Assembly (NCBI GenBank): GCA_003279445.1
Contig: QCHT01000008.1
Location: 1 to 64,000 of the forward strand
DNA from: Prochlorococcus sp. AG-402-G10
GTDB taxonomy: Bacteria; Cyanobacteriota; Cyanobacteriia; PCC-6307; Cyanobiaceae
Reading direction: 5' to 3'
Length of the DNA: 64,000 nt
In this document: piece by piece, positions 28,547 to 45,536 of the stretch
Layout: every line of letters starts with the position of its first letter
Position numbering within the stretch: the stretch's first letter is position 1
Translations under genes and position numbers: made by a program
Notes under the pieces: model-generated
Told to the model about the DNA's origin: nothing
Seen by the model: only the letters and a program-made list of their open reading frames with translations
Databases searched by the model: none

Positions 28547-29835
28547 TTATTTAATGATATCTAACCCATTTTGAAGAGTAGTGTAGCAATGAGTCAGTTG
28601 CTCGTCGGTAATACAGAGTGGTGGCAAAAGATATATCACATTCCCTAGTGGTCGGATGAAGACATTGTGCCTCAATGCATATTTTTTATAGCTTTGCCTG
28701 TGATGTTTAGATAACCTGCTTCTTCATTTGTGTTGAGTTCAAAGGCAGCGATAGTACCGGCTAGTCTTACTTTCTTGACTTTTGGATGCAAGGCAAGTTG
28801 TTTTAGATGAGGAGAATGTCTGGATTCAAAGTTGAGGTATGAATTTGAATTGTCTTCCAATAGATCCAAGCTTGCATTGGCTGCAGCACAACCTAGTGGA
28901 TTCGCTGTAAAGCTATGACCATGCCAAAAAGTTTTCCTGGGGTTTGAATCTAGAAAAACATCAAATATTTTCTTGCTTGCCATAGTGATACCCATTGGGA
29001 GGAATCCACCAGTCAGTCCTTTGGAAAGACACATCAAGTCAGGTGAGAGTTTCCCACGCTGAGATGCAAAGAGAGCACCTGTTCGCCCGAATCCAACCAT
29101 GACTTCATCAGCAATGAGTAATGTCTTTGATTGATGAACAATTTTTTCTATTTTTTCTAAGAATTCTGTTCTCACTATTGCCATGCCACCTGCTCCTTGG
29201 ACGAGTGGCTCAAGTATTACTGCTGCTGTAGGCACCTTAAGCAGTGTTTCAAGTTGTCTGATTGCTTTTTCTTCCCGCGCATCTATTTCTGGGTCATTCC
29301 ACCATGTTGAGGGCCAAAGAACCCTGCTTACCGGGAAAAGTAACTTTTCAAATGGCTCGTTAAAAAGATTTCGTTCCCCTACTGACATCGCTCCAAAAGT
29401 ATCTCCATGATAGGCACCTTCGAATGCAATTATGTGTTGCCTTTCTTCTCCTTGGTTATGCCACCATTGAAGAGCTAGCTTTATTGCTACTTCAACAGCA
29501 GTAGAGCCATTGTCTGAGAAAAATAGTCTTTCTAGACCAGTTGCCTTACTGAGCCTTTTGGCTAGAAGTTCAGCTTGTGGATGTGTGAAATCAGCGAAGA
29601 TTACTTGCTCTAACTCTTGGGCCTGATGATAAATCGCCTCTGCAATGTATTTGTTTCCATGACCATGAAGAGTCACCCACCAGCTGCTTATTGCATCAAT
29701 AATAGATGTCCCATCATCTGTTATAAGTAGAGCTCCATTACCCTTTAGAGCTCTTTCAGGTGGCTTTGAGGATGTTATTTGAGTAAATGGAGGCCAGAGA
29801 TTTGGATGCCATTCCGTTGCTAATGAATTTTTCAT
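28547..29835 (-). pseudogene. bioA: Adenosylmethionine-8-amino-7-oxononanoate aminotransferase with a C-terminal frameshift
   Basis: BioA converts KAPA to DAPA in biotin synthesis using PLP and SAM. The first 387 codons (28672-29835) read normally: SSWWVTLHGH, FFSDNGSTAVEVA, FEGAYHGDTFGAM, IADEVMVGFGRTG and the PLP lysine in LSKGLTGG. The frame then stops at 28672 after GKAIKNMH. The -1 frame continues to 28547 as ALRHNVFIRPLGNVIYLLPPL plus about 25 more residues, which is the conserved BioA C-terminus. One base appears lost in the A-run at 28682-28687. The truncated form lacks the conserved Arg that binds substrate. The run also forms A AAA AAT, so slippage might restore the full protein. 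Last gene of the biotin operon. Confidence 0.85.
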
Positions 29836-29994: not shown

Positions 29995-30657
29995 CTAACA
30001 AGTATTAGTATGATTAATTAGCTTTTCAAGCTTTTCAGAAACCTTTTGCTCCCTCCATTGCATAGAGAGGACTTCGGAAGAGATTTGCTCCATTAGAGGC
30101 AATTGCGCAACTATATCTATTCCACTTACTTCTTTAAGTGTCTTAGGGTTGTCTGAATGAAATGGACCATTCAATATAATCCCTATTATGGGGATATTTC
30201 TTTTTTTTAAAGCTTCAATAGTTAGGAGTGTGTGGTTAAGAGTACCTAAGCCAGTTCTTGCAACAAGGAGAACAGGTAACATCCATTTTCTTAATTGATC
30301 AATTTGCAAATATTCTCGAGTCAAAGGAACCATTACACCGCCGGCTGTCTCAATTACAAGAGGTTCTTTGATCATAGGAATCTTTAGATTTTGAGATTCG
30401 ACCAATTGATTTTCTTGCTCAGCTGCCCAGTGTGGCGAGACAGCTGCCTTGAATTTGTATCGCTCGGGAAGGATCCTCTCTGGAGGGAGGTTTAGAAGTT
30501 GTTGGACTGTATGTGAATCACCACCATCTTCGTAACCACTTTGAATAGGTTTCCAATAAACGGCTTTTAAACCTTGTACTAGAAAACTACTGACAATAGT
30601 TTTGCCAACGTCTGTATCTGTTCCACATACAATCAGTTTTAAAGACTGCAAATTCAT
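29995..30657 (-). CDS. bioD: Dethiobiotin synthetase
   Basis: Closes the ureido ring of DAPA with CO2 and ATP to make dethiobiotin. The P-loop CGTDTDVGKT lies near the N-terminus, followed by YWKPIQSG and VIETAGGVMVPL. The ATG at 30657 (MNLQSLKL) overlaps the bioC stop as ATGA. An upstream ATG at 30687 would add ten residues but deepen the overlap. It ends 159 bp before bioA; that gap has no gene. Confidence 0.94.
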   Translation of the reverse strand: MNLQSLKLIVCGTDTDVGKTIVSSFLVQGLKAVYWKPIQSGYEDGGDSHTVQQLLNLPPERILPERYKFKAAVSPHWAAEQENQLVESQNLKIPMIKEPLVIETAGGVMVPLTREYLQIDQLRKWMLPVLLVARTGLGTLNHTLLTIEALKKRNIPIIGIILNGPFHSDNPKTLKEVSGIDIVAQLPLMEQISSEVLSMQWREQKVSEKLEKLINHTNTC

Positions 30658-31409
30658 TTTTGAGCTATAAGTACTTGAATGAACCAAGTCAATTTATAGA
30701 CATGAGTTTTTTGAGAGATCTCCCACGCATTTTCTAGTTTTCTCCATTGTGTAATTGAAAGGGATTGTTGAGGACTGCTTTGGCCTCCAATTTTTACGAA
30801 TGTTTTTAAAAGTGAAGTAACTTTGGGGCTCTCTTGGGTAAAACGTTCGAGTCTTTGGAATTTTATCTGTTCATTTGTGATTACTTTAAGTATTGAATCT
30901 TTAGAGGGAAATTGCATAGCAGTGCAAGCAACACCTGCTTTTTTTGCAGCTTTATGCCATTCGGGGAAACTTCCCTCTACTGGGATTGCTATCGCAATAC
31001 ATCCGCCAGGAGCTAATGCATGAAACCATTCTTCTAATTTTTTTTCTGGTTTATTGATCCAATGGAGCACAAAGTTCGATGCAATTAATGTTGGAGGGCC
31101 TATCCATTGCGGTAGACCTGAGTTCAGATCAAAAAGGAGTGTTTCACTTTCAGATGGATGCTGCTCCAGCATCTTTGGAGAACTATCTACCCTAATTACA
31201 GCTTGATTTGGATGAAGTCTTTCAAGTTCATTTGCAAGAAAACCTGTCCCAGAACCTAGGTCAACCCACAGTCCAGTAGGGATAGTTCTTTGTGAGCATT
31301 CCAATGCAAGCAACTTTGCAAAAGGCATTTGCAAAGTTGCTTCCTTGTTATATCTAGAGGAAGCCTCGTCAAAGTTTTTGATTATATGGTTTTGCCAGCT
31401 TGTTTTCAT
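30654..31409 (-). CDS. bioC: Malonyl-ACP O-methyltransferase
   Basis: BioC methylates malonyl-ACP so that fatty acid synthesis can build the pimeloyl chain of biotin. The 251-residue protein has a class I SAM-binding motif (DLGSGTGFLANEL, near residue 50), a PQW-region typical of BioC (SGLPQWI) and ASNFVLHWI. Sits third in bioF-bioK-bioC-bioD-bioA and overlaps both neighbours by 4 bases. Confidence 0.92.
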   Translation of the reverse strand: MKTSWQNHIIKNFDEASSRYNKEATLQMPFAKLLALECSQRTIPTGLWVDLGSGTGFLANELERLHPNQAVIRVDSSPKMLEQHPSESETLLFDLNSGLPQWIGPPTLIASNFVLHWINKPEKKLEEWFHALAPGGCIAIAIPVEGSFPEWHKAAKKAGVACTAMQFPSKDSILKVITNEQIKFQRLERFTQESPKVTSLLKTFVKIGGQSSPQQSLSITQWRKLENAWEISQKTHVYKLTWFIQVLIAQK

Positions 31410-32122
31410 TTAGTTGATTTTAACCAATTGCTAACTTTTTTGATGATGCCTGGTAGTTGGATGATATGTCCTTCACCCGTAAGACGCCACTGAGTAGGTG
31501 GGTGATCCATATGTATCCTTAGATCTGAGATGAGCTGATCACTTGTTATAGGATGGATTATCTTATCTTCTTTGCCTTGTATTGCGAGAATCCGTGTGTT
31601 TTTTGAAAGGGCTTTAGGTAATTCATGACTCTTGATTAGAAGATTAAAGTCTTCTATAAGTTGCTTTCGACCTTCGTCAGAGATCCTTTGTGAAAGTGGT
31701 CCGTCTATAGAATCAGGAATCTTATAAGGTTGATTTGCTTTCTTCAGAAACATGAAAAGCATTTTGCTCTCTGTTGTTTTACCTAAATGCTTTTGCATGC
31801 CGATTAACCCTGTCCGTACGGCTCTACTACCTGGACCATTGGGAACAAAACGACTAAAGCTGTTTATTAAAATAATGTCTGAGGCTTCTTTAAGTATTTT
31901 AGAAGGGAGTAAATGTATCCCAAGTGAATGACAAAAAATAACTTTTTTCTGACCCATACTTGCCTGGGTATTGTTATTCCACGTAGGGTTTGAAGCTTCG
32001 TAATTTCCATAACCTCTCTCGGCATTTTTCCAAAGCCAACCATCATTTTGAAAGTATTGTTCCCAGTTTGTCCAAAAAGTGCTATCACAACACCATCCAT
32101 GCATGGAGATTGCTTGCTTCAT
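31406..32122 (-). CDS. bioK: BioK-type pimeloyl-ACP methyl ester esterase
   Basis: A 238-residue alpha/beta-hydrolase. The nucleophile elbow is CHSLG with Ser66. A likely acid is the Asp in GKEDKI near 195, and the catalytic His is in GEGHIIQ near 220. In marine Synechococcus and Prochlorococcus a hydrolase at this position in the bio operon, BioK, replaces E. coli BioH and frees pimeloyl-ACP by removing the methyl cap. The assignment rests on the location between bioF and bioC, the size and the triad. It overlaps both neighbours by 4 bases. Confidence 0.87.
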   Translation of the reverse strand: MKQAISMHGWCCDSTFWTNWEQYFQNDGWLWKNAERGYGNYEASNPTWNNNTQASMGQKKVIFCHSLGIHLLPSKILKEASDIILINSFSRFVPNGPGSRAVRTGLIGMQKHLGKTTESKMLFMFLKKANQPYKIPDSIDGPLSQRISDEGRKQLIEDFNLLIKSHELPKALSKNTRILAIQGKEDKIIHPITSDQLISDLRIHMDHPPTQWRLTGEGHIIQLPGIIKKVSNWLKSTK

Positions 32123-33264
32123 TGCTTTTTCCCAAGGTGAAACAATAGTTTCTGTAGGGTCCCTTTAGGCAAATTACTTCTAACAATAAGTCTCAGTCGG
32201 GAAGTTCCCTCAGGAACAGTAGGCGGGCGTATTGCAATAGTTAAAAGACCATGCTTTTCCAGTTCATATTGCTTCTTCAAGGACTCTTCATCATTACCAA
32301 TCTCAAGCGAAATGATGGGACCAATTCCCTTAGGGCAACTCCAACCTTGCTTTGCAAGTTCCGACCTCCAAATTATTGCTTCTTCTTGCAGTTTTTGACC
32401 TTCCTTAGGGTTAGCTTTTAAGAATTCTAATGCCTCCAAAGCTGCTGAAGCTAATGGTGGAGCTAGAGCCGTTGTATAACGAAAAGCACCACTGGTTTGA
32501 AGGAGATGCTCGCCAAAAATGTTATTTGTCGCTACGAAAGCACCCCCACTTCCAAATGCTTTACCAAAAGTGCCACTAATCATCGTAATTCCTTTTGATA
32601 TTCCATGGCATAAACCGCGGCCTTGATCTCCTAAAACACCTAAAGCATGTGCTTCGTCAACTAAAAGTCTTGCTTGATAGTTCTCACAGAGAAGAGCGAT
32701 TTTCTTTATGTCTGGACTAGTCCCTTCCATGCTAAAAAGACTTTCAGTTATGACTAGAGGTGCTTGACTAGGTTGTTCAAGCACAGAATTCTGGAGAAGC
32801 CTTTCAAGATCATTAATATTATTGTGTGCAAAACGCTTAATCTTTGCGCCACTTGCTTTGATCCCGACCAAGAGTGAATGATGAATTAACTTGTCAGTGA
32901 TCACAAGAGTTTTTCTATTTGCTAAAGCACAAACTGCAGCTAAATTTGCCTGAAACCCACTCGGGAAAAGGAGAACCCTTTCTAAACCAAGCCATTTACC
33001 AAGCTCTTGCTCAAGTTTTTTATGTATAGGTCTACTTCCTGTAACAAGCCTAGACCCTCCAGCCCCTATTCCTTCAGAGAGCATTGTTTTATGAGCTGCT
33101 TCAATTAGTCTGGGGTCTTGGCTGAGACCAAGATAATCATTGCTAGCAAGATCTATAAGTGGGATTGATTCATTGTTTTTTCCAGAACTAATTAATTGAA
33201 AGGCTTTCTCACCTGGTTCCCAGGTCCTTATTTTACGTAGTCTTGAATTTGGAATTTTTTTCAT
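32119..33264 (-). CDS. bioF: 8-amino-7-oxononanoate synthase
   Basis: BioF condenses pimeloyl-ACP (or -CoA) with L-alanine to KAPA, using PLP. Motifs include NDYLGLSQDP, GSRLVTGS, LLFPSGFQAN, DEAHALGVLG and the PLP-lysine region SGTFGKAFG. The frame is open to 33345, but the ATG at 33264 (MKKIPNSRLRK) gives the normal family N-terminus. First gene of the bioF-bioK-bioC-bioD-bioA operon; divergent from the helicase gene. The intervening gap should hold its promoter. Confidence 0.94.
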   Translation of the reverse strand: MKKIPNSRLRKIRTWEPGEKAFQLISSGKNNESIPLIDLASNDYLGLSQDPRLIEAAHKTMLSEGIGAGGSRLVTGSRPIHKKLEQELGKWLGLERVLLFPSGFQANLAAVCALANRKTLVITDKLIHHSLLVGIKASGAKIKRFAHNNINDLERLLQNSVLEQPSQAPLVITESLFSMEGTSPDIKKIALLCENYQARLLVDEAHALGVLGDQGRGLCHGISKGITMISGTFGKAFGSGGAFVATNNIFGEHLLQTSGAFRYTTALAPPLASAALEALEFLKANPKEGQKLQEEAIIWRSELAKQGWSCPKGIGPIISLEIGNDEESLKKQYELEKHGLLTIAIRPPTVPEGTSRLRLIVRSNLPKGTLQKLLFHLGKKQ

Positions 33265-33389
33265 GTATCTAGTTTGATGAGATTTTTTAGTTTTAAATAA
33301 GATTCTTTGATATTTTGAATATGCATGGTTTTCTTGAGATGGCATTATTGGATGGGGAGATTAAATTCTCTGAGTAGGATTAGTGGGAT

Positions 33390-45032: not shown

Positions 45033-45536
45033 TTGGAGCCTTTGTTGGCATCCTCACCTGTTACATCTGATGCTAACTCCCGAAATGGAGATGGTGACTT
45101 GTGTTCAAGTAGGGAGACCAGTGAAAGACTAAAGCTTTCAGGGGACCTTGACTCTTCAGAAAATAACTCTGGAGATCTATCTGCGGAATATGTGTTGCTT
45201 CAGCTACGCATATTCAGGATTAACTTGGTTGTAACAGCTTTTGCAGCCGTAGTTTCCATCCTTTTTGTTGATCTTAATGCTGCTATTAGTCTTCTTTTAG
45301 GAGCATGCTCAGGAATCATTTATTTGCGGCTACTCGCCAAAAATATTGGATCTCTTGGTAAATCTTCATCTTCGGTTGGCAAGGTCCAATTGATTGTTCC
45401 GGCAGCATTAGTTCTGGTAGTTGCAAAAGTACCTGATCTTCATTTGCTTCCTTCTTTGGTCGGTTTCTTGCTTTACAAGCCATCTTTAATTATTCAGTTT
45501 TTACTTGAGCCTTATGCTCAAAAAAAATCTGGTTAA
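45033..45536 (+). CDS. atpI: ATP synthase accessory protein AtpI (Atp1)
   Basis: A 167-residue protein at the head of the ATP synthase operon, where AtpI, an assembly or ion-supply factor for the membrane rotor, is found. It has an unconserved acidic/Ser-rich N-terminus (about 1-55) and four hydrophobic segments (about 60-80, 83-102, 120-135 and 140-158). It starts from a TTG; the true start could be further in. The call rests on position, size and membrane profile. Confidence 0.8.
   Translation: MEPLLASSPVTSDANSRNGDGDLCSSRETSERLKLSGDLDSSENNSGDLSAEYVLLQLRIFRINLVVTAFAAVVSILFVDLNAAISLLLGACSGIIYLRLLAKNIGSLGKSSSSVGKVQLIVPAALVLVVAKVPDLHLLPSLVGFLLYKPSLIIQFLLEPYAQKKSG

Follow-up and report, generated by a model that had tools for sequence, protein, structure and literature searches.

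Among the closest described systems are the A_AA.A_AA.N heptamers of IS elements, which have the X_XXZ_ZZN form and stand in the right frame for a shift; the version with N=U is not singled out in the sections of PMC4066793 on which this account draws. In the endosymbionts Buchnera and Blochmannia, frame breaks at A runs are accompanied by poly(A) transcriptional slippage, the runs being long in the cases described in PMC5009743. A further point of reference is given by the GeneTack singleton frameshifted genes (PMC3711429), in which a break present in a single genome is confirmed by homology. The gene considered here, a bioA whose frame is broken at a run of six A, shares with these systems a correctly framed X_XXZ_ZZN heptamer, a break at an A run, and a single-genome interruption that homology confirms. 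It differs from the IS elements in that no stimulators were found, the site is not conserved and the gene belongs to a biosynthetic pathway, and from the Buchnera and Blochmannia cases in its mere six A and in the intact frame of the fetched relatives. In contrast to the GeneTack singletons, it is accompanied by two more broken genes, one of them presumably essential, so that an error is more directly indicated. No earlier report of a frameshifted Prochlorococcus bioA was found within the single literature library searched.

The window, that is, the whole stretch of 64,000 nt analyzed, belongs to a 1.62-Mb draft genome of 37 contigs with a completeness of 89.7%, denoted here as G000. Its minus strand carries a biotin cluster in the order bioF, an unclassified gene, bioC, bioD and bioA. 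The initial annotation regarded the four bio genes other than bioA as intact. All those in the window are indeed open frames, but in terms of family support bioD alone (29995..30687; TIGR00347, 135.5 bits, cut-off 83.3) exceeds its cut-off: the bioC-like methyltransferase (30654..31409) reaches 111 bits with TIGR02072, under the cut-off of 184.95, and bioF (32119..33345) reaches 347.6 bits with TIGR00858, under 426.45. The open gene between bioF and bioC (31406..32122) gave a weak PF00326 match (E 0.019, under cut-off) and no match in NCBIfam, and we presume that it is perhaps a BioH/BioK-type esterase of the biotin pathway. The true start of bioF is probably downstream of its first ATG, since a frame difference from the relative G003 (Prochlorococcus sp. 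AG-412-P08, QCLI01000006.1) falls about 21 codons from that ATG. The bioB gene lies outside the window, in the same genome, and has an open frame.

The zero frame of bioA (28672..29835, minus strand) encodes 387 residues, the last of which are GKAIKNMH, and stops early at TGA 28674..28672. This ORF matches NCBIfam TIGR00508 with 445.5 bits (cut-off 405) over profile positions 1-371 of 419, and, judged from this match, its assignment to bioA is right. The C-terminal remainder (FIRPLGNVIYLLPPL...; 28547..28681, minus strand) is found in the other frame, which reads ...YALRHNVFIRPLGNVIYLLPPLCITDEQLTHCYTTLQNGLDIIK up to a stop and finishes at 28547. The frame break falls at a run of six A (28682..28687, minus strand), where the zero-frame junction codons ATA AAA AAT include the heptamer A_AAA_AAT; slippage by -1 at this point leads to the correct continuation. 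The frame end at 28672, the continuation one frame over to 28547, the six-A run and the in-frame heptamer are all confirmed from the sequence as they had been annotated. When the whole assembly was searched with TIGR00508, bioA was recovered in two pieces, covering profile positions 1-372 and 364-416, the second of them at 28568-28726. Because the tail aligns with 13 relatives, the existence of the break in the G000 assembly is well beyond chance. The same search of the 89.7%-complete, 37-contig assembly yielded no second bioA; two other class-III aminotransferases were considered as spare copies and rejected, given their 248.9 and 124.9 bits against the cut-off of 405.

The consequence for the protein was evaluated on the intact BioA of G003, whose residues 12-417 align with the BioA chain of 1dty, which we take to be that of E. 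coli. The Arg of the IRPFG sequence in 1dty, residue 391 as counted in the alignment, stands opposite FIRPLGN, which is encoded 3' of the break. The C-terminal part bearing the Arg391 position, placed in G000 through the alignment of this intact relative, is therefore not in the same frame as the 387-aa product, which falls short of a BioA in this respect. Arg391 presumably binds the substrate carboxylate, and because its position sits in the missing tail, the truncated protein is probably inactive.

A search of 60 related genomes with the 387-aa protein gave some match in 59, in many instances only to other aminotransferases. Thirty loci were fetched, including that of the window itself; a piece of G007 (AG-436-K22) was added and L026, which ends before the junction, was dropped, leaving 29 covering loci from relatives. 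All of these (21 + 8) maintain one open frame between the HGHSF region and the RPLG tail, and nine further strong matches outside the 29 (E 1e-100 or better) are listed without internal stops. At the junction, G003 and G007, the two closest relatives, present seven A and an open frame, which supports the proposal that one A has probably been lost from a run of seven; the comparison with related strains, suggested in the initial annotation as a check, shows an open frame in every covering locus. The A runs of G009 (AG-363-B11) and G011 (AG-436-M02) are shorter at this position, with the frame open. Since seven A recur in loci L011 and L020, the A tract itself is unremarkable. G003, G007, G009, G011 and also G013 (AG-409-F19) were taken as single-cell records; plates AG-412, AG-436, AG-363 and AG-409 appear in a table of the single-cell data paper (PMC6122165). 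G000 belongs to the same genus as these five relatives.

The uniformity of the relatives bears directly on the idea that the break represents real recoding, with full-length BioA produced or controlled through programmed -1 ribosomal frameshifting at A_AAA_AAT. As this idea demands, the heptamer is correctly framed and slipping by -1 there yields the proper continuation; however, the 29 covering loci are open without any shift. Moreover, within the 538 kb sampled from G000, A_AAA_AAT occurs in frame in 85 copies, distributed over 74 of the 474 ORFs with 100 aa or more, so the heptamer is common and unremarkable as a motif. Three downstream stretches folded no better than their shuffles (z 0.97, 0.32 and 0.56), and none of the five SD-like patterns taken from PMC4066793 was found in the 30 nt upstream of the heptamer; the stimulators covered by these tests are thus local downstream folds and that upstream segment, as distinct from distant or pseudoknotted elements. 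It also counts against programmed frameshifting that A_AA.A_AA.U is missing from the 18 heptamers selected in PMC4066793 for being shift-prone and underrepresented, although this absence is weak evidence and does not by itself show that the heptamer is inactive. In summary, among the attributes expected of programmed -1 frameshifting, bioA has the heptamer in the zero frame, and neither conservation nor a stimulator was found. Recoding of bioA was consequently rejected, the annotation's suggestion to this effect finds no support, and we consider a programmed shift at this site hardly credible.

A different possibility is accidental, low-level bypass: the mutation would be real, and slippage of RNA polymerase or of the ribosome on the A run would yield enough full-length BioA, which is made easier by the fact that biotin is needed in small amounts only. 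The downstream folding at the level of shuffles and the lack of an SD-like element in the 30 nt upstream argue against it. A precedent is provided by the laboratory drift of M.HaeIII, in which frame-shifting indels in repeats of 3-8 bases were tolerated and a deletion in a 4A repeat was compatible with high activity at basal expression, as reported in PMC3812077. Nevertheless, the same source places most recorded cases at about ten or more A, compared with the six of bioA, and attributes the bypass in M.HaeIII in part to the location of the site between conserved motifs (PMC3812077). Long A runs are likewise the usual setting of transcriptional slippage according to PMC5009743, and poly(A) transcriptional realignment was discarded, as the cases described there involve nine A or more. 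Overall, accidental bypass of a real bioA mutation appears very improbable.

A real mutation might also have had its full effect. In bioA, the sequence downstream of the junction differs from that of G003 in three codons, two of them silently and one by replacement, and contains no further break. Slow decay was rejected on this basis, there being no additional disabling change or sign of relaxed constraint, and the annotation's alternative of a decaying gene is left without support. The undecayed tail speaks in favor of a draft error; a very young pseudogene would look equally undecayed. The form of inactivation to be weighed is a real and very recent slippage mutation, with the cell relying on imported biotin or being on its way out. 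Runs of A are by nature prone to slippage, and seven A are present in the two closest relatives; the assembly yielded no second bioA, and the Arg391 position is missing from the truncated product. In addition, G000 possesses a gene for a BioY biotin transporter (L065, G000:C1:181420-181857; PF02632, 95.9 bits, cut-off 25), which makes biotin import possible in this organism. For the same reason, the annotated argument that biotin synthesis is under selection is weaker than it was put: the cluster genes and bioB are open, as it held, but a transporter gene is present. These open genes, in turn, stand against a real loss of bioA, as does the finding, described below, that hisG and gmk are broken too, the real loss of gmk being one that should be lethal. 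A real inactivation of bioA was thus considered unlikely, although it is the chief competitor of a draft error.

It can be added, as a separate observation, that the BioY gene coexists with biotin-pathway genes in G000.

The remaining evidence derives from the comparison of G000 with G003 beyond bioA. Across the window, G000 and G003 are collinear and 96.4% identical, with 24 gaps, 21 of them not divisible by three. As judged by eye from their positions, the bioA gap is the sole one well inside a gene; others fall at 33283, within the bioF 5' extension, and at 45520, at the extreme end of an ORF. A wider comparison comprised six aligned blocks, with 87.4-96.2% identity to G003, that together account for 373 kb; the remainder of the 538 kb of G000 sampled is without counterpart among the fetched G003 stretches. 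A frame change was counted when it was flanked on either side by 60 or more aligned columns, so that neither substitutions at stops nor breaks close to the ends of genes enter the tally. Among 343 G003 ORFs of 90 aa or more, four change frame in G000, namely bioA, hisG, gmk and a doubtful 90-aa ORF (C1:9802), which was set aside. In the reverse direction, the frame differs in G003 for 3 out of 344 ORFs of G000: the 5' extension of the bioF frame and a 101-aa ORF with no Pfam match, both set aside, and a 149-aa HTH_25 ORF. One or two of these three could be genuine genes. This reverse count indicates that G000 is not grossly worse than G003, and since frame changes occur in G003 as well, the bare rate is not decisive by itself. 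A cruder earlier test on fewer stretches had flagged more ORFs, most of them on account of start or stop differences (judged by eye); an rbcS-like ORF was dismissed as a further break, because its difference, as judged from the translation, lies upstream of the start, and it is unflagged in the stricter tally.

With regard to the 149-aa HTH_25 ORF (L060, G000:C3:114796-115245), it shows a two-base difference in an A run relative to G003 (L072), in which the frame changes near its start; here, the break may be in G003.

Both hisG and gmk are split in G000 at a homopolymer. In hisG (L093/L094, G000:C3:20948-21596), the two halves lie in different frames at a G run, which is G6 in G000 and G5 in G003 and G007, and the gene is whole in all seven relatives searched. 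In gmk, encoding guanylate kinase (L085/L084, G000:C3:107580-108132), the halves lie in different frames at a C run of 8 bases, against 7 in G007, while G003 has other sequence of shorter length; the gene is whole in six of the seven relatives searched, G011 giving no match. Apart from the two halves of each, no second copy of gmk or hisG was found in the G000 assembly, from which, at 89.7% completeness, such copies could be absent. Relative to these genomes, bioA is one base short and hisG and gmk have one base extra, so that a single direction of slippage cannot explain all three breaks.

What tips the balance is the nature of the genes affected. The gmk gene is essential in well-studied bacteria, and losing guanylate kinase should kill the cell; it follows that at least the gmk break is either absent from the organism or bypassed. 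If, as we assume, gmk and hisG are indispensable genes of G000, then the assembly contains other indispensable genes broken by homopolymer indels, and the simplest common cause of the three breaks is an error of the draft, because no cell should be viable when Gmk is missing. We therefore consider it probable that the frame break in bioA stems from a homopolymer error in the draft sequence. The error would have arisen in the homopolymer during amplification, sequencing or assembly, and the bioA of the living organism would be intact like that of its relatives. We infer that the DNA of the organism itself is uninterrupted at the bioA junction, and G000 would be a single-cell or metagenome draft. 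The annotation's "recent or sequencing error" thus emerges as the best-supported of its readings, in view of the equivalent single-base indels in hisG and gmk.

The expected error rate is in keeping with a draft error. The single-cell workflow behind the relatives gave an average of 3.0 indels per 100 kb in three benchmark cultures, as stated in PMC6122165, which corresponds to about 11 in 373 kb; three coding breaks are then unsurprising, provided that the G000 draft is of the single-cell kind. This argument is weakened a little by PMC5519541, in whose benchmarks the single-cell assemblies of P. marinus tended toward the lowest numbers of indels. Taken one by one, each of the three indels could be a real mutation, and the laboratory bypass of short-repeat indels described in PMC3812077 tells against a draft error. 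That all three are real, the lineage surviving because RNA polymerase or ribosome slippage on short runs produces full-length BioA, HisG and Gmk, is nonetheless a proposal to which we give almost no credence.

Were all three indels real, this would be a remarkable case, in which a free-living cyanobacterium would tolerate frame breaks in the manner known for insect endosymbionts. As it stands, bioA is an ordinary gene in the fetched relatives, and the biological import of its break is small. For drafts of uncultured picocyanobacteria, the case counsels that one frameshifted biosynthesis gene should not be equated with auxotrophy or recoding before the indispensable genes of the same assembly have been checked.
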